Shown here one piece after another: positions 1,796 through 20,717 of a stretch of 31,095 nucleotides of DNA. Below the pieces are notes generated by a model that was given only the letters and a program-made list of their open reading frames with translations, did no database searches and had not been told where the DNA came from. The stretch spans positions 1-31,095 of IMG/VR virus record IMGVR_UViG_3300029319_000290; one strand, written 5' to 3'. Position 1 is the stretch's first letter. Every line of letters starts with the position of its first letter. A program made the translations under genes and the position numbers. Source of the stretch: a virus.

Positions 1796-3909
1796 TATGC
1801 AGTTATCCTTAGAGCAGATTCTAGTGTTGTTGTCCAATCATCTTGACCTACAGTATGCTTAACAGCTTTTACCTGAAAACAGTGGTCTTTTTTCATAACC
1901 TGCGGTGTATAATCTGTTGCAAATAAATAACCCCATGATAATCCACCTATACCGTCAAGTGTTAAGTCTACACCAATAGGTATTGCAGTTCCTCCACTAC
2001 TTGCTGGAGAATTCTCACCAAATGCATTGTGATATGCTTTCATAGCTCCTAATGCAGCATCACATGTTTCGTCTGACCTGTTTTCTGCTAGTTCGTGAAA
2101 TGCTTCTCTAATATTTTTTTTCAATGTGTCTAGAGTTGGTGTTTGTGAGCCAGCTTCTGATTTTTCCATTCCTCCTTCACAACCTTCTCCTGCATTTTGT
2201 GCACCATCAAGCCTCTGCTCACCTACCATAGTATCTTTTATTCCTTCAGCATAATCTAAATAAGTATACATTGCTTCATTTGAATTTGATTGCTCACTAT
2301 TACCTGCTTTCTTTTGAGTTCCCATCATTACAGCATGTCTAAGAGATTGAGGTATGTCTGTACTAACACCCCAACTTCTTGCAGAAGTATTACCTAAAAG
2401 ATTCATTACAGGTACCGTAGCTTTAGGTGGTTTTGGTATATAGTTTCTATCTATTACTCTCATTACTGATGGGTCCTTAGGGTCGTCTACCAATTCTAGG
2501 TCCCAAAAACTTCCACAAACTTCATTGACCTTTTTTGCAACAGCCATTATATATTCATCTATTGTTTTAGCCTGCATTGATGCCTGCCATAAAAAATAAG
2601 TATTTAGATATATCCTTCCTAATAAACAATAATTTCCTTCACCTTTGGCTGTGTCTCTTTTAAGACCCGAACGTGATTCAAGTGTTGTCGCTGCAGCCGT
2701 TTTATGAATTTCATTATATCCAGCATTTCCTCCAATACCAAATTCAGAGTACGGACTTAGCGAGCCATCAACTGCATTTGCACTTGTCCAGTGTGCGTGG
2801 CCTGGTACAATACAAACCCAAGGGTCTGTCGAACCCCAAGGTTTTTTAATAGAATCAGCAACCTTTAATCTGCTTTTAGAGCTATCAAGTCTCCAAACAT
2901 GTGATTTTTTCCAATGGCCTTGAAAAGGACTAAAATTAGATTTATTATATAATGCCTTTGATGTTTTATAATTAGGAGAAATAGGAGAAAGACCAGATAT
3001 AATTGCAGACTCCCACCATGCCCATGATACATAATAATTTGTTTTAGATGAACCAAACCATCCTGTAAGAGTACTCCACCAACCTGCATCTTCTTTTGCG
3101 TCTTCATCTAGATTTATTGAAAATCCAGCTATTGTATCTGTTCTCCAAACCTTACTTTTTTTAATTTGGCTTTCGGCCATGTCTTTTAATACAATCTTCA
3201 TCCATTGTCCTGAACCATCATCCAACATACCACCACTTTTACAACCTGCTGTTACTTTTTTAGGAGCAACATTAATTGGTCCACTTACATAAGCCTTTCC
3301 TGGTGAGTCTACTGTTATTTCACATTTATATGATTTTGATGATGGGTCAAAAGACCAGTTAAAATCTGATATAACTCCACATATTCCTTCTGTACTTCCA
3401 TTATTTGTTTTTGAATATGAATTTATTTTATCTTGAAGGTCATACATACTATTTGAATTGGTAATAGCGTCGTTTGGTATTCTTTCTATAGGTGAACCAT
3501 CTGATTTCATATTCCAACCCCATTGTGCGAAAGCTGTTAAACCTGGTACAAAATAAGCTCTTTGTGCTTTTCTTAATTGTTCTATAGAATATAAAGTAAA
3601 AGTAATTGTACCTTTTCTCATTGCACCATTAGCCCCTGTTGTTCCTACCTCTATTGTATTTATTGCAGGTTGCGGTACAATTCTACCTGTTTCGGATTCA
3701 TCGTGTGTTGTATAAAAGTCGTCTACTGTTCTTTTTTCAAAATCAGCCAATGGAAAAGGTTCACTAGAAAAAGATGTAAGTGACATCCAAGTCTTTTTTG
3801 AGACCTTCCATTTGTCGCTTGGTTTAGCAGCACCTCTATCATTTACCTCCTGTATAAACCATTCAGGTATTAGTCTACCTGTAATATATCCATCTGAGTA
3901 TTTTGCCAT
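1795..3909 (-). CDS. Putative baseplate hub-like structural protein
   Basis: The protein has 704 residues and starts at ATG 3909 after CGGAGATATAA. The N-terminal third has tail-protein character, including TITFTLYSIEQLRKAQRAYF near residues 103-122 and DFNWSFDPSSKSYKCEITVDS near 188-208. A Trp/Gly-rich middle follows. The C-terminal end, from DLTLDGIGGLSWG through QVKAVKHTVGQDDWTTTLES, resembles the closing strands of tail hub proteins of the T4 gp27/gpD kind, where a conserved His and a Trp-x-Thr pattern recur. It sits in the baseplate block after the gp53-like gene and overlaps the start of the next gene. A hub role is inferred from position and this weak C-terminal resemblance. It could also be another baseplate wedge or tail-associated protein. 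Confidence 0.55.
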   Translation of the reverse strand: MAKYSDGYITGRLIPEWFIQEVNDRGAAKPSDKWKVSKKTWMSLTSFSSEPFPLADFEKRTVDDFYTTHDESETGRIVPQPAINTIEVGTTGANGAMRKGTITFTLYSIEQLRKAQRAYFVPGLTAFAQWGWNMKSDGSPIERIPNDAITNSNSMYDLQDKINSYSKTNNGSTEGICGVISDFNWSFDPSSKSYKCEITVDSPGKAYVSGPINVAPKKVTAGCKSGGMLDDGSGQWMKIVLKDMAESQIKKSKVWRTDTIAGFSINLDEDAKEDAGWWSTLTGWFGSSKTNYYVSWAWWESAIISGLSPISPNYKTSKALYNKSNFSPFQGHWKKSHVWRLDSSKSRLKVADSIKKPWGSTDPWVCIVPGHAHWTSANAVDGSLSPYSEFGIGGNAGYNEIHKTAAATTLESRSGLKRDTAKGEGNYCLLGRIYLNTYFLWQASMQAKTIDEYIMAVAKKVNEVCGSFWDLELVDDPKDPSVMRVIDRNYIPKPPKATVPVMNLLGNTSARSWGVSTDIPQSLRHAVMMGTQKKAGNSEQSNSNEAMYTYLDYAEGIKDTMVGEQRLDGAQNAGEGCEGGMEKSEAGSQTPTLDTLKKNIREAFHELAENRSDETCDAALGAMKAYHNAFGENSPASSGGTAIPIGVDLTLDGIGGLSWGYLFATDYTPQVMKKDHCFQVKAVKHTVGQDDWTTTLESALRITA

Positions 3910-3927
3910 TTATATCTCCGTAACCTT

Positions 3928-4386
3928 TTAATAACCGCCTCCACCAGATGAGCCTACACCTGATGAATTTGTAGGTGCTTCATTGCCTTCAGGAAGTTCT
4001 ATATCTGGTAAATCATATGTTCTTTCTTCTAACATTATTCTATATCTATTAAGTATTTCTGAAATTCTACCTGGATGTGGTATTCTTATTCTCTGTCCTG
4101 GTTCTACAAACATAGAGCCTTTACCTATACCTTTATCCATTTTTTCAGTAATACCATAATTAGACGCTCTATCAAGTTTATTTGCATTTGCAATCACCCA
4201 CCACAATGTAACATCTTCATAGTATTGATATGCCAAATTATCTAATCTATCCTCAACCAAAACATCAATATAAAAATCTTGTTCGTGTCTTTCTATCTTA
4301 GGATAAATTATTGTTCCATATACTTTTTTAGAACGCTTATTAAATTTATCTGTTATTTTTGTTTTATTTTCTTGATACCTTTTCAT
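3928..4386 (-). CDS. Baseplate wedge protein, gp53/LysM-like
   Basis: This is a 152-residue protein starting at ATG 4386 with AGGGG eight bases upstream, the AGGGG overlapping the previous stop. The central part (IDVLVEDRLDNLAYQYY, then DVTLWWVIANANKLD) and the later PGQRIRIPHPG have the layout of a LysM-type fold: a repetitive-use Tyr/Leu helix, a Trp-Trp core and a closing 'P-G-x-x-I-x-I-P' strand. T4 gp53 and many baseplate proteins of contractile tails use such a domain to link the tube end to the wedges. The C-terminal tail is Pro/Gly/Ser-rich (SSGVGSSGGGGY) and probably disordered. It lies between the large baseplate protein and the hub-like gene. The gp53 assignment is inference; the LysM-like baseplate class is more secure. 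Confidence 0.62.
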   Translation of the reverse strand: MKRYQENKTKITDKFNKRSKKVYGTIIYPKIERHEQDFYIDVLVEDRLDNLAYQYYEDVTLWWVIANANKLDRASNYGITEKMDKGIGKGSMFVEPGQRIRIPHPGRISEILNRYRIMLEERTYDLPDIELPEGNEAPTNSSGVGSSGGGGY

Positions 4387-4394
4387 GATTGCCC

Positions 4395-7106
4395 CTAATA
4401 ACTTATGAATTTACCATCTGATTTCCAAATATTACCATCTGCATTAACAAGGAATTTACCTCCTAGTTTTAAGTCAAATAGCATTGGCAATTCTAGGTCA
4501 GTTGTTTCATTACCTTCGCCAAGAGCTATATCCCAACCTGCATCAAGATTTATTGTATAATCAACAGTTTCGATAATAGCAGGTATAGCTCTCCATAAAT
4601 TACCTACAGTAATTTTATTTATTCTACCTCCACCTACATCTGCTATCATTTCTGGTGAAGCCTTTTGCATAATTTGATTTAATAGCTTGTAATTATTTTT
4701 TAGCTCACCTTGTGTGAATGCTGGCATTTGTAAACCTAAACTCCACTCTCTTGATATTTTATCAAACATATAAGCATCTACAGGATTACCTGCATATGAT
4801 ATTGCAGAATACGTAGGTTTTAATCCATCACTTATTTCAGTTATGTAAGCACGTAGTCTAATACCATCTATACTTATAGTTACATAATCTTCCCCATAAT
4901 TTGTGTCGTCAGTACTTTCACCTGGTTTTGTAGCACCATAATCAGATATACCAATTCTACTAACTGAATTATTTTCATATGAATCGTTTTCGTCTTTCTT
5001 TCTAAAATCTCTGAATGTTTTAGGACTTCTTCTATATGCTATTAAATCATCATATCCAAATGTTGAAAATGTTTTTTCACCGCTACCTGGAAATATTTCA
5101 CCTTCATTTGGTGGTGGTGTCAATTCTATAAATTCATCTGTAATTCTATCATTTTTTATAGCCTTTGGTGCCTCTGCATTAACATCGTCTGTACCAAATT
5201 TAGATTTTTCAAAAGGCTCTGCATCAGGAGCTCCATATTTTAATGTTGGGTCTTGGCCTTTTTCATATGCTTCATTATAGTCGTCAACATGATATTTACC
5301 TTGATTATATTCTGATGCATCTATATTGCCTTCTGCTTTAGGAAAACCTTTCCAGCTATCAGGTGTATCTTGCTCATAAGGTTCATATCCATTGTCACCT
5401 TTGAATGTAAGAATACCTAATGATAAATCTTCGTTTTCCTCGCCTTTTGCTGCCTCTGATGCCTTTCCATCATCATAATGTGTTGTTGCTTTTTGTTTGT
5501 AATAAGGTTCCTCAGGTGTATATGTAAATACTCTATCATAAGCAATACCTGATGTATGCTTGAATATTTGAGTTTGACCTATACCAAAAAGAGAATGCGG
5601 TCCATTTATACCAGACAACCTTTTTATTTTTTCACCTTTACCTCTTAATTTATTTAAGAAAGTTGTAAACTTTGTATATAGTGCTTCAAGACCTTTTAAT
5701 TTCTGAGGTATTAGTTCTTTTCTAGGATTCTTAAATAATCCAACTTCCATATCTTCACCAAGTTTAACAAGCCTATTGCTATCTCCTGGTGATGATGGAT
5801 TTTTATTTTCTATTCTATCAATAACTCTTTCGTACATTATATCACGAGGATTTAACTGTCCTAAGAAATGCCTGTCTCCGTGAATACCTAAAGCGTTTAA
5901 CGGTACCTGTAACGCTAAAGCCAAAGGATTATATACTCTGTCAGCATTTATAAAAGGTAATTGAAAAAATTGTTTTTTAGGATTTGTTAACTGAAGTCCT
6001 AATTGCTTTAGATTAAAAAGTAAACCTCGAGGTGACACCATAAACTTTGCAATTCTTACAGTATCAATTATAGGAGCAGTTAGCTCGTTAATCATTTCTA
6101 ATGCTCCTGAAGGATTGTCCTTTCCTCTTTGTATACCTCTTTGTACAAATGGTTGTTGTAAAAATAGTGGTGCTCTAGGATTGTTTCTCTTTGCCTCTTC
6201 TCTTAAGCTTACAAAATCGTTGTTTCCTACTCTTGATTGAGAATCGTCAATTTGCGAGTCTGACATTCTTAATGAAGGAGGATTGTCCTCTGTTCCTGCA
6301 GCAATTGAAACACCTTGTCTTGCAGCCGGACTTACTCTAGCAAAATAATCATTATATCTTTCTCTTGTAAATGTATATGAAGCACCTCCAGCTGGTGGTG
6401 TTTGACTAAACTTAAATTGAGTTGTTCCATCTCTTTTATCTGGTTGGTCGTTTATTTCTAAAAAACCAGATGTCATATTATTCATATGAGTTATTTTTGC
6501 ACCACCTTGCCCTGCAAATATAGGTACTCTATCAGATGGAGAAAGACCTGCAAACAATTCTAACAATGCTGAATCCTTTTTAGGTGTAGCAGCAAATGGT
6601 TTTGTAGGGTCTATTGTTATTTTTTCTGGTGTTGGTCCTAATGGATTTATAGGTGACAATGTTGATTTTTCTGGTGTTGGTCCTAATGGGTTTATAGGAG
6701 CAATAGTAGAATATTCAATTGAATTTTGGTCTGTGTTTATTGCCTGTGTAGAATAATCTATTGTATTTTGGTCTTTGTTTACCTCCTGCATTGTATAATC
6801 AGGACCTTTTTTGCTAAACGCTTTATCTTTTGGCTCGAACGCTTGGCCTTCTAAACTAAACGCTTTATCTCTACCTTCTATTTCTTTACCTTTTGCAAGT
6901 TCAGCAAGCTTACTTGTTGTATGTCCAGGCTGAAAGTTAAATGGTGCATTTGGTTCCTGTGTAGGAAAATCAATTGCTCTACTAAATTGTTGCTGTATAG
7001 GTTTTGGTGCAAACTTACCTAATGGATTAACTGATGTACCAACAGGCTGTTTGTTTTTTTCGCTTGCCTTAAAATATTCTTCTAAATTCTTAAAATTAAA
7101 TGCCAT
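4395..7106 (-). CDS. Large baseplate/tail-tube-associated protein with N-terminal short repeats
   Basis: The protein has 903 residues and starts at ATG 7106. Its SD, GGGAG, overlaps the stop codon region of the tape measure gene. The first 180 residues are polar and probably disordered, with an imperfect array of about 15-residue units at 103-177 (for example INPLGPTPEK twice). The middle is not recognised. The last 200 residues form a compact-looking domain running from YVTISIDGIRLRAYITEI, through YAGNPVDAYMF and REWSLGLQMPAF, to a final strand-rich segment. This has the character of tail-tube initiator or baseplate central-disc proteins. T4 gp48 and gp54 occupy an equivalent role between tape measure and wedges but are much shorter. 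The function is inferred from position and the C-terminal domain only. Confidence 0.6.
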   Translation of the reverse strand: MAFNFKNLEEYFKASEKNKQPVGTSVNPLGKFAPKPIQQQFSRAIDFPTQEPNAPFNFQPGHTTSKLAELAKGKEIEGRDKAFSLEGQAFEPKDKAFSKKGPDYTMQEVNKDQNTIDYSTQAINTDQNSIEYSTIAPINPLGPTPEKSTLSPINPLGPTPEKITIDPTKPFAATPKKDSALLELFAGLSPSDRVPIFAGQGGAKITHMNNMTSGFLEINDQPDKRDGTTQFKFSQTPPAGGASYTFTRERYNDYFARVSPAARQGVSIAAGTEDNPPSLRMSDSQIDDSQSRVGNNDFVSLREEAKRNNPRAPLFLQQPFVQRGIQRGKDNPSGALEMINELTAPIIDTVRIAKFMVSPRGLLFNLKQLGLQLTNPKKQFFQLPFINADRVYNPLALALQVPLNALGIHGDRHFLGQLNPRDIMYERVIDRIENKNPSSPGDSNRLVKLGEDMEVGLFKNPRKELIPQKLKGLEALYTKFTTFLNKLRGKGEKIKRLSGINGPHSLFGIGQTQIFKHTSGIAYDRVFTYTPEEPYYKQKATTHYDDGKASEAAKGEENEDLSLGILTFKGDNGYEPYEQDTPDSWKGFPKAEGNIDASEYNQGKYHVDDYNEAYEKGQDPTLKYGAPDAEPFEKSKFGTDDVNAEAPKAIKNDRITDEFIELTPPPNEGEIFPGSGEKTFSTFGYDDLIAYRRSPKTFRDFRKKDENDSYENNSVSRIGISDYGATKPGESTDDTNYGEDYVTISIDGIRLRAYITEISDGLKPTYSAISYAGNPVDAYMFDKISREWSLGLQMPAFTQGELKNNYKLLNQIMQKASPEMIADVGGGRINKITVGNLWRAIPAIIETVDYTINLDAGWDIALGEGNETTDLELPMLFDLKLGGKFLVNADGNIWKSDGKFISY
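6576..6800 (-). repeat. Five imperfect ~15-residue tandem repeats inside the 903-residue protein
   Basis: Residues 103-177 read as successive units beginning DYTMQEVNKDQNTI, DYSTQAINTDQNSI, EYSTIAPINPLGPT, STLSPINPLGPTPEK and ITIDPTKPFAATPKK. The two PLGPTPEK units are nearly identical in DNA with a 45-base period (6621 and 6666). Confidence 0.75.
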
Positions 7107-10338: not shown

Positions 10339-10348
10339 ATATAAATAT
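10339..10348 (-). promoter_or_regulatory. ATATTTATAT promoter-like motif before the small gene/tape measure
   Basis: The coding strand reads TTGATATTTATATTAAAC, 33 bases upstream of ATG 10306. The motif overlaps the stop codon of the +1-frame ORF. The promoter role is inferred from its recurrence at gene starts. Confidence 0.5.
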
Positions 10349-10590
10349 CAACGTTTAGGAGATTTCGGTGAGAAACTTGGACGCTTTATAGTGCGGCTTT
10401 TGCTGCCTCGTTTAGCCTTGTCCATTTCTTCTTTCTCTTTTTTGTGCTGGTCATTCAATTGCCTTAAATAAAATAATCGTAAATATACAGGCATGCTATA
10501 TACATCATCATGGCTAAACCCACCATTAGAGAAGTACAGAAGTTGGAATATCTGTTTGTGTAGAATGGGCCTGTATTCAGACCCTAGGCC
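10348..10590 (-). CDS. 80-codon ORF without start codon, probable frameshift extension of the gp26-like protein
   Basis: In the +1 frame relative to the gp26-like gene, an open frame runs from GGC at 10590 to a TGA at 10348-10350. It encodes 80 residues beginning GLGSEYRPILHKQIFQLLYF and continuing SNGGFSHDDVYSMPVYLRLF. The end is basic (KRPSFSPKSPKR). Upstream in that frame a TAG closes it three codons before GGC. There is no ATG, GTG or TTG until a Met in the middle of the conserved-looking region, and no SD. The frame joins the gp26-like frame at a run of seven T, so a +1 or -2 slip gives a continuous 362-residue (or 363-residue) fusion. The place, between tube and tape measure, is where tail assembly chaperone frameshifts occur in many phages (gpG/gpGT of lambda, -2 in Mu). 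The ORF is seen; the frameshift is inferred. Confidence 0.78.
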   Translation of the reverse strand, partial: GLGSEYRPILHKQIFQLLYFSNGGFSHDDVYSMPVYLRLFYLRQLNDQHKKEKEEMDKAKRGSKSRTIKRPSFSPKSPKR

Positions 10591-10597
10591 AAAAAAA
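10568..10597 (-). promoter_or_regulatory. Candidate frameshift site: T7 run followed by a short hairpin
   Basis: The zero-frame codons are GAC TTT TTT TGG, giving a seven-T run at 10597-10591. Slipping +1 or -2 keeps Phe codons in the P site and enters the downstream frame at GGC. Directly after the run, GGCCT (10590-10586) can pair with AGGCC (10572-10568) across a 13-base loop that holds the zero-frame UGA. The stem is only 5 bp, so its role is uncertain. Confidence 0.6.
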
Positions 10598-11437
10598 GTC
10601 TACGGTCATAGGAATTTGTACTGATGTTTCATGTCCACATTCTTCGCATTCAAAATATACAGTCATATCTACATCAGGTGTTACCTTTTCAAGATGATTT
10701 CTAAATGCTAATGAATCTCTAGATATAAATTCATTTTCAACAAATTTATTTATTGTATTTCTATCCTCTTCACCGTCTACCGCAACAATTACTTGTTTAA
10801 GCCTACTAGTTAAATCATAAGAAATTGTAGAAGAATGTGTTTTCTTTTTCATTCTTTTAATTTCTGCCTGTACTTTTTCTTCGTCTTTGTGAGAAAGAAT
10901 CTTAAATGTAATAGTCTTTTTACTTAAAGGTAATACAAATTCAAATCTATTACCATTATCTACAACTTCAACATCTTTATTTTTTAGAGTTGCAAGGTCA
11001 ACTACTTCTTTTTGTTTATGACCACAAGCAGGACAAGGAATTTCAACGTGGTATTCAGCACCATAACCTAATACTCTTGCTGCAACCATTACTGCATTTT
11101 TATCTCCTAACAATAGGTCGTCATAATTAACTCTTTGGCCTTTTCCGTTACCTACAATTAAAGAACGAAGTAACATATCAATAACAACACCTTTTTGTAT
11201 AAGATTTTGAGAAGTAAGAATATCTTCTTCTTTTGCAGTCATATATTTCATTTCAATCTTACCTGTACGCAATGGATGCTCTTCAGGATATAACAATCCT
11301 TTACTTGGTAAGTCTATGATTTCTGTTGGAAATTTAGAATCAGAAACTCTTTTTATTTCTGTTTCCTGAATTAACTGTTCTTTTAACTGGTCTGTTGATA
11401 ATCCTTTTCCAGGATATTCGTCCGTAACTTTTGCCAT
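10577..11437 (-). CDS. gp26-like baseplate/tail assembly protein (zero-frame product)
   Basis: This is a 286-residue protein starting at ATG 11437 after AAGGAGTTATACA. The N-terminal motif FPTEIIDLPSKGLLYPEEHPLRTGKIE, followed by MKYMTAKEEDIL, is characteristic of the T4 baseplate assembly family of gp26. Two CxxC pairs (C135/C138 in CPACGH and C264/C267 in CEECGH) are spaced to form one zinc site. The frame ends ...MTVDFFWPRV. Just before that end is a seven-T run at which a +1/-2 slip would replace WPRV with the 80-residue extension described separately. Located between tube and tape measure, the gene probably acts in tail or hub assembly and may be the T4-superfamily counterpart of a tail assembly chaperone. 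It follows the terminator after gp19 and has its own ATATTTATAT motif. Confidence 0.82.
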   Translation of the reverse strand: MAKVTDEYPGKGLSTDQLKEQLIQETEIKRVSDSKFPTEIIDLPSKGLLYPEEHPLRTGKIEMKYMTAKEEDILTSQNLIQKGVVIDMLLRSLIVGNGKGQRVNYDDLLLGDKNAVMVAARVLGYGAEYHVEIPCPACGHKQKEVVDLATLKNKDVEVVDNGNRFEFVLPLSKKTITFKILSHKDEEKVQAEIKRMKKKTHSSTISYDLTSRLKQVIVAVDGEEDRNTINKFVENEFISRDSLAFRNHLEKVTPDVDMTVYFECEECGHETSVQIPMTVDFFWPRV

Positions 11438-19709: not shown

Positions 19710-20717
19710 TTATTTTAATCCAGCCAATTTCTGCATTCTTGATGCGAAAGTGTTGGACTCAACAATTACATCTTTCGACGGTTTTGTTGAACGAATTGAT
19801 TTTGATGCAAAGCCTTCATTGATTTTTTTCGACTTTGGAGCATAGCTTGTTAATGATTCAGCTAAAGTAGAGTATACTAATTTAACCTCTCTTACAGAAT
19901 TAGCTCTGTCGAAAGTTTCGATAACTTTCATCTTTTGTGATTCAGACAATGATTTGTTTCTGAATAGTTTGTTAGAATAAAGTAGTTTTGAATTTAGCAA
20001 GTTAACTTCATTGATTTTAGATTTCAAGAATCTAATAGTTTTGTAAGCTTCTTCTAATTCAGTTTCGTCTACCTCAGTCTCTTCAACTTCAGTTTCTTCC
20101 ATGTCGTCCTCTTCTCTTAATGCATTAATTATCTCGTCCAAGTCCATCTCCTCCATATCATCTTCCTCGTCCAAAGGTTCAGCGTCATCGTCGTTATCAG
20201 TAGCTGCAACATCTCCAGCACCAGGGTCACCTGCATCGTTTTTCTTTGCATCAATTACACCTGTTTCTTGAGAGTCAGCACCTAAGTCTTCGTCTTCTTC
20301 AGCTTCTTCTTCTTCCAATTCCTTAATGATTTCTTCCAATTCACTGTCAGTCTCTTCCATGTCCATTTCAGTCTTCTCGTCATCAGTTTCTTCAACTTCT
20401 GTTTCGTCGTAAGTTTCTTCCATATCCATTTCAGTTTTCTCATCGTCAGTTTCTTCCATTTCAGTTTCGTTATGAGAAGTTTCTTCTACGTCTTTTTCGT
20501 CCATAGCCATTTCATCTGTATCAGTTTCCATAGCCATTTCTTCAGTATCAGTCTCTTCCATATCGTCTTCATCCATTTCTTCTGCGATTTTGTTAGACAA
20601 CATTGATTGTAATTTTGGAGTAAATGCTTCTTCTAGAGCTAATTTAGCATTTGCAATTGCAGTCGAACGAACCGCCTTTGCGTCAGCAATAGCCTCTTTT
20701 AATAAGTCTTTTGACAT
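19710..20717 (-). CDS. 22: Prohead core scaffold gp22
   Basis: The protein has 335 residues (T4 gp22: 269) and starts at ATG 20717 after AAGGAG. It forms the core around which the prohead shell assembles and is later degraded. The N-terminal helix (KEAIADAKAVRSTAIANAKL) and the basic helical C-terminal part (SEFQ-like SESQKMKVIETFDRANSVRE region) frame a long, extremely acidic middle (about residues 48-220) of Glu, Asp, Met and Thr with internal repeats. Possible gp21 cleavage motifs include IAE near residue 45 and LAE in the C-terminal part. The gene is immediately upstream of the capsid gene, as in T4. Its leader of about 120 bases contains hairpins described separately. Confidence 0.9.
   Translation of the reverse strand: MSKDLLKEAIADAKAVRSTAIANAKLALEEAFTPKLQSMLSNKIAEEMDEDDMEETDTEEMAMETDTDEMAMDEKDVEETSHNETEMEETDDEKTEMDMEETYDETEVEETDDEKTEMDMEETDSELEEIIKELEEEEAEEDEDLGADSQETGVIDAKKNDAGDPGAGDVAATDNDDDAEPLDEEDDMEEMDLDEIINALREEDDMEETEVEETEVDETELEEAYKTIRFLKSKINEVNLLNSKLLYSNKLFRNKSLSESQKMKVIETFDRANSVREVKLVYSTLAESLTSYAPKSKKINEGFASKSIRSTKPSKDVIVESNTFASRMQKLAGLK
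20348..20462 (-). repeat. Direct DNA repeat within the acidic region of gp22
   Basis: Two copies of about 52 bases (20348-20399 and 20411-20462), at a 63-base (21-codon) period, encode near-identical EETDDEKTEMDMEET segments. Shorter METD/EMAMDE variants flank them. The repeat probably arose by slippage or duplication. Confidence 0.7.

Follow-up and report, generated by a model that had tools for sequence, protein, structure and literature searches.

Probable programmed +1 frameshifting at UUU_UUU_U in a gp26-like tail assembly chaperone gene of T4-superfamily phages

T4 gp26 and gp51 have been listed as hub assembly chaperones, gp51 being essential and absent from the particle (PMC3004832). 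As cited in two later papers (PMC10885494, the PRFect paper; PMC12846349, the Adele paper), Vladimirov, Gautam and Davidson (2022, Virology 566:9-15) described gp26 and gp51 of T4-like phages as tail assembly chaperones (TACs) and their two-gene solution, and poly-T sites for -1 shifts have already been reported from TAC genes of T4-like phages (PMC12846349). In lambda (gpG/gpGT, PMC5009743) and SPP1 (gp17.5/17.5*, PMC6316719) a short tail assembly chaperone is likewise accompanied by a rare, frameshifted long form. Shifts by +1 are documented for phage structural genes (capsid, tail tube), at the CCC_U sites of Listeria phage PSA and SPP1 (PMC5009743, PMC6316719). In influenza virus, PA-X is made by a +1 shift at UCC_UUU_CGU with UUU in the P site (Firth et al. 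2012, PMC3498833).

Here we analysed a gp26-like gene in the window, that is, the whole stretch of DNA studied (31,095 nucleotides), which is a 31-kb piece of the genome of an uncultivated phage of the T4 superfamily and has its tail genes on the minus strand. The frame, the slip site, the missing start codon, the selection, the hairpin and the homologies described below were computed. The locus has the following features:

12044-11553, minus strand: tail tube protein, the upstream neighbour (phrog_4542 tail tube, E 1.7e-21)
11437-10577, minus strand: gp26-like gene (short TAC, TAC-N), zero-frame product 286 aa
10599-10348 including the stop, minus strand: +1-frame extension ORF (TAC-C), about 80 aa, without a start codon
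10597-10591, minus strand: slip site TTT_TTT_T (T7), proposed +1 slip of the P-site tRNA-Phe, next codon GGC at 10590-10588
10584-10567, minus strand: hairpin of 7 bp with a 4-nt loop (GGGTCTG AATA CAGGCCC), with its arms at 10584-10578 and 10573-10567, separated from the T7 by 6 nt
10579-10577, minus strand: zero-frame stop TGA
10312-10028, minus strand: 94-aa ORF lying after the extension and before the tape measure gene, function not assigned
10021-7109, minus strand: 970-aa tape measure protein, downstream (BLASTP match, E 9e-24, to the protein annotated as tape measure in Flavobacterium phage immuto)

The gp26-like gene ends with GAC TTT TTT TGG CCT AGG GTC TGA; both this gene end and the coordinates given in an earlier note on this DNA were borne out when checked on the window sequence. 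The +1 frame begins just after a TAG and ends with TGA at 10350-10348, and 76 of its 83 codons lie beyond the zero-frame stop. Its earliest ATG, GTG or TTG is an ATG 28 codons beyond that stop, within the conserved domain. The 970-aa tape measure protein is the presumed client of the chaperone. A small ORF occupies the position equivalent to that of the 94-aa ORF also in Mel-JY01 and in two loci described below (L027 and L197). Elsewhere in the window, an open ORF at 1-897, by eye like a fragment of a family A DNA polymerase, adjoins the tail genes, and 19710-20717 encodes a scaffold-like protein of 335 aa with acidic EETEVDETE-like repeats, beside a major capsid-like gene.

Very probably, a conserved programmed +1 frameshift at UUU_UUU_U yields a short and a long TAC from this gene. 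Related loci were collected from IMG/VR with the gp26 proteins of the window, Flavobacterium phage immuto, SP-15 and PA5oct as queries, and further loci were taken from isolate phages and from bacterial and archaeal MAG contigs. The +1 extension was intact (>50 codons) in 158 of 175 related loci, and in 4 more it was open up to the contig end. In four of the 175, namely PA5oct, two of its relatives from IMG/VR and LR756511, the extension lay in -1; the remainder consisted of one duplication (L027) and of loci cut by contig ends. Among the independently assembled MAG loci with sequence beyond the stop, 10 of 10 had it in the +1 frame. Of the 78 non-redundant loci, 63 had no ATG, GTG or TTG at a distance of up to 8 codons from the zero-frame stop. 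For the extension, 39 independent close pairs gave a dN of 0.067 and a dS of 0.786 (dN/dS 0.085), as against dN/dS values of 1.67 and 2.07 when this DNA was translated in the two alternative frames. Strong purifying selection acts on the extension. Searched alone, it matched no family in Pfam, PHROG or NCBIfam. A plasmid search found no homologue.

Runs of seven or more T are common in the AT-rich window (20, two strands together), whereas an in-frame TTT_TTT_T is unique, among the 9,278 gene codons of the window, to the end of the gp26-like gene. The site reads TTTTTTTGG in 55 of the 78 non-redundant loci, nearly always with C or G before it and CCT after it; the other sites include TTT_CTT_TGG, TTT_CTA_TGG, TTT_CTA_TTC, TTT_CGT, TTT_CGC, TTT_TTT_CAC and TTT_TTT_AGT. 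The slip codon was TTT in all 78 non-redundant +1 loci, with T or C nearly always the next base; each locus has a zero-frame TTT with T or C after it, so tRNA-Phe can re-pair one base downstream. At the T7 loci both Phe codons were TTT in 55 of 55 non-redundant cases (P ~6e-15, from the genes' own codon usage). T in the wobble position before the slip codon was found at 1 of 78 loci, against 36 expected from codon use. Such a T would create the -1 heptamer T_TTT_TTT, so its avoidance avoids a -1 heptamer; relatives with the extension in -1 do carry T there (GAT_TTT_TTC, AGT_TTT_TTC). With the extension in +1 and the upstream T so rare, the sites do not conform to the canonical -1 heptamer X_XXY_YYZ; a conserved site at which the P-site tRNA can re-pair one base downstream, which characterizes +1 frameshift sites, is present across the 78 loci. 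Judged from these sequences, the nucleotides of the slip site are conserved beyond coding need. The base profile upstream contained no consistent G-rich motif of the kind expected for an RF2-like Shine-Dalgarno stimulator. The earlier note had described the extension as start-less, and had named conservation of the ORF, its frame and the T run in homologous loci, together with dN/dS, as checks; all came out in favour of its reading.

That note had left the direction of the shift as +1/-2. A programmed shift is upheld by the frame, the site, the absent start and the selection, and on the sequence evidence it is almost certainly +1 and not -2. Frameshifting by -2 has been reported for phage Mu, and on T7 a P-site tRNA-Phe slipping by -2 would keep full pairing and reach the same frame as +1, with an extra Phe inserted (DFFFGL). 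The LIS04 site, GAG_TTT_TTT_AGT, fits -2 at least equally, as re-pairing after the second TTT would be poorer there at +1. We nevertheless consider a -2 ribosomal shift unlikely, because TTT_CTA, TTT_CTT, TTT_CGT and TTT_CGC re-pair well at +1 and poorly or not at all at -2; sites that re-pair well only at +1 include TTC_TTT_CGT, CTG_TTT_CGC, AAC_TTT_CTA and ACC_TTT_CTA in relatives. A further reason is the natural in-frame fusion of L027, the junction of which reads NFFG, not NFFFG.

Slippage of RNA polymerase on the T7, giving an edited mRNA that carries the fused frame, could be favoured by a homopolymer run followed by a hairpin. It appears very improbable: the +1 extension is kept in relatives with broken runs (TTTCTTT, TTTCTAT, TTTCGTC), the runs are rarely longer than seven T, and the avoidance of T before the slip codon is the opposite of selection for a longer run. 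This site pattern fits +1 slippage by the ribosome and argues against polymerase slippage, since the latter would favour longer runs. There is similarly little chance that the extension is a separate small gene whose translation depends on re-initiation, or on coupling, at a non-standard start. Annotations of the Mel-JY01, SP-15, BRock and immuto phages do show parts of it as hypothetical genes on their own, but most loci have no start codon near the junction, the slip-site nucleotides are conserved beyond what coding needs, and the extension is fused to the gp26 domain in T4 gp51 and in the second copy of L027. That the ORF is an artefact, through a sequencing error or as the decayed remnant of a formerly continuous gene, is refuted by the data: homopolymers are prone to errors, yet the same +1 arrangement recurs in isolate genomes and in so many independent assemblies that an error in the T run, which the earlier note had said would mean one 362-residue gene, is excluded, and the ORF has a dN/dS of 0.085. 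A chance ORF was rejected on conservation, in the 158 loci and the 10 MAG contigs, and on selection.

The gp26-like protein matched Pfam T4_baseplate (PF12322) with E 6.5e-14 (52.6 bits against a curated cut-off of 24.5) and phrog_150, baseplate hub, with E 1.2e-17. In profile comparisons the +1 family aligned with the -1 homologues from end to end, extension included (E 9e-38), and the -1 homologues aligned with T4 gp26 (E 6e-25) and T4 gp51 (E 3e-19). For the extension alone, E was 1.4e-6 between the +1 and -1 families and 1e-10 between the -1 family and the gp51 C-terminus. The direct match of the window family to T4 gp51 (E 6e-6) was weaker than that via the -1 relatives; reversed and column-shuffled control profiles gave E >0.1. 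A single-sequence hhalign to T4 gp26 and gp51 was too weak. An AF2 model of the window gp26 had pLDDT 82.5 and pTM 0.77, and its top PDB row was the HK97 TAC (2ob9; Z 5.5, rmsd 3.3 A, 75 of 104 residues), a match which at Z <8 may reflect only a common arrangement. A fold in common between the N-domain and the HK97 TAC is suggestive only. In a PDB search by sequence no chain matched.

The gene lies between the tail tube and tape measure genes, the position of a TAC, and at the sequence level it specifies two products that share the N-terminal domain, the long one by recoding, as in TACs. These data support the conclusion that the locus encodes a tail assembly chaperone in predicted short and long forms. 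The earlier note had read the gp26-like protein as a frameshifting chaperone; its TAC reading is backed by the gene position and by the homology to gp26 and gp51, with the HK97 match of the N-domain alongside, and frameshifting is supported as well, but the TAC identity of T4-like gp26/gp51 was already published, as were the -1 poly-T sites.

L027 (IMGVR_UViG_3300025030_000361, 3001-4849) contains a tandem duplication of gp26. Copy 1 retains T7GGCCT and has just 20 codons in the +1 frame. In copy 2, which has a probable GTG start at 3920, the extension is fused in frame, the Phe codons are TTC TTC and there is no T7; the junction reads PNFFGITADYGP, as a +1 but not a -2 product would. As its sequence indicates, L027 has replaced frameshifting by duplication and in-frame fusion, an independent parallel to T4 gp26/gp51. 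In an AF2 model of the fusion (mean pLDDT 66) the extension forms helices, the main ones with pLDDT ~80-93; a PDB search with this model gave only unrelated, mostly helical matches.

Other divergent loci were also recorded. Cyanophage Sf-FS3 (L178, 1974-2890) and three phages of Rhizobium and Aeromonas (IC12, RL38J1 and phiAS5; L179, L180, L181) have canonical -1 heptamers, T_TTT_TTC/G, at the end of gp26. The annotations of all four make the extension a gene of its own, with a later start; in Sf-FS3 it is labelled 'baseplate hub assembly catalyst'. In Pseudomonas phage Cygsa01 (L182, 2072-2982) the extension is in -1, the site is C_ATT_TTC and TAATG stands at the junction; this phage may use re-initiation instead of frameshifting. 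The 595-kb phage LR756511 (L087) has an extension-like ORF in the -1 frame that overlaps the gp26 relative by 115 nt; no obvious slip site was found in this overlap. L197 (2-6756), from the 2.8 Mb MAG chromosome CP070664.1 of candidate division WOR-3, which has masked stretches, carries sheath, tube, gp26 with a T7 site, the +1 extension and tape measure-like genes. These tail genes are either a prophage or a binning chimera.

The short stem which the earlier note had placed around the zero-frame stop is real: the stop straddles the boundary between the 5' arm of the hairpin and its loop, and the stem covaries. In a clade of 15 around the window, defined by the gp26 tree, 95.2% of the hairpin pair cells held standard pairs, 5 of 7 pairs had changed on both sides, and 17 cells were doubly changed against 4.4 after shuffling (sd 1.9). 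Sliding the partner by 1-3 columns reduced pairing to <=53%. Over all 65 distinct T7 rows pairing was weaker (61.5% vs 54.9% shuffled), yet it exceeded every shuffle. Because the extension frame also codes there, coding constraint contributes to the hairpin signal. A family-wide hairpin was rejected, with a mean z over the 78 loci of -0.2 to -1.0 and pairing mainly in the window's clade. Being mostly confined to that clade, the hairpin cannot be essential for the shift in general; it is probably a clade-specific pausing element.

In the mechanism that we propose, most ribosomes would stop at TGA 10579-10577 and release the 286-aa short form. In a fraction of ribosomes the tRNA-Phe in the P site (anticodon GAA) would leave its UUU codon in UUU_UUU_U for the UUU that overlaps it, so that one base is skipped; a pause at this point is probably caused by the hairpin 6 nt further on. 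Shifted ribosomes would read on through ...DFF-GLGSEYRP... and complete a product of about 362 aa, the long form. If lambda gpG/gpGT (PMC5009743) is taken as a model, the tape measure protein would be coated by the domain that the abundant short form shares with the rare long one, the extension of the rare form would recruit tube subunits, and the ratio of the two forms would be set by the frameshift rate. We infer the occurrence of the shift, its efficiency, the pausing at the hairpin and the binding partners. A need for both forms is supported by the two genes of T4, by the short and fused copies of L027, and by frameshifting, +1 or -1, in nearly all other loci with sequence beyond the stop.

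Apparently new are a +1 shift at UUU_Y, the hairpin and one locus that has duplication and in-frame fusion instead of frameshifting. The same two proteins as T4 gp26 and gp51 are apparently made from one gene, by +1, in at least 150 relatives. The family thus offers many natural +1 sites in bacterial viruses that follow one easily tested rule, UUU_Y not preceded by U. It also supplies the missing C-terminal part of a gene mis- or unannotated in the isolates immuto, SP-15, BRock, LIS04 and GXN1, and allows T4 gp51, in 2010 described as essential with function unknown, to be viewed by comparison with other phages as regards its role. We consider it likely that UUU_Y is a widespread class of phage +1 sites, parallel to UUU_CGN of eukaryotic viruses and boosted by a hairpin in one clade, and that gp26 TACs have switched among +1, -1 and duplicated-gene forms with the same two proteins kept.

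A literature search, mostly without subscription papers, found no report of +1 frameshifting at UUU in the gp26 TAC family; priority is not certain. T4 resembles the window family in its homologous short and long forms, gp51 being a gp26-like domain plus the extension, and differs from it in having two separate genes and no frameshifting, where the window family has one gene. The -1 TACs of Sf-FS3, IC12, RL38J1, phiAS5 and PA5oct have their gene in the same position, with a poly-T site and an extension that is homologous, and by the published description the same is true of the -1 TACs of Vandenendeviridae (PMC12846349). The former shift at T_TTT_TTC or T_TTT_TTG, whereas the window family shifts by +1 at TTT_Y and avoids the upstream T. 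The shifts of lambda gpG/gpGT and SPP1 gp17.5/17.5* are also -1, and these chaperones have no demonstrated sequence homology to the window TAC. The +1 sites of PSA and SPP1 (PMC5009743, PMC6316719) differ in using a proline codon in a rare-codon or stop context, not UUU, and are not in chaperone genes. The closest site type is the eukaryotic-virus UUU_CGN class (PMC3498833). PA-X comes from a eukaryotic virus and an unrelated gene, and most of the phage sites are UUU_UUU_UGG or UUU_CUU_UGG; the UUU_CGN core itself, however, is also found in phages GXN1 (UUC_UUU_CGU) and BRock (CUG_UUU_CGC).
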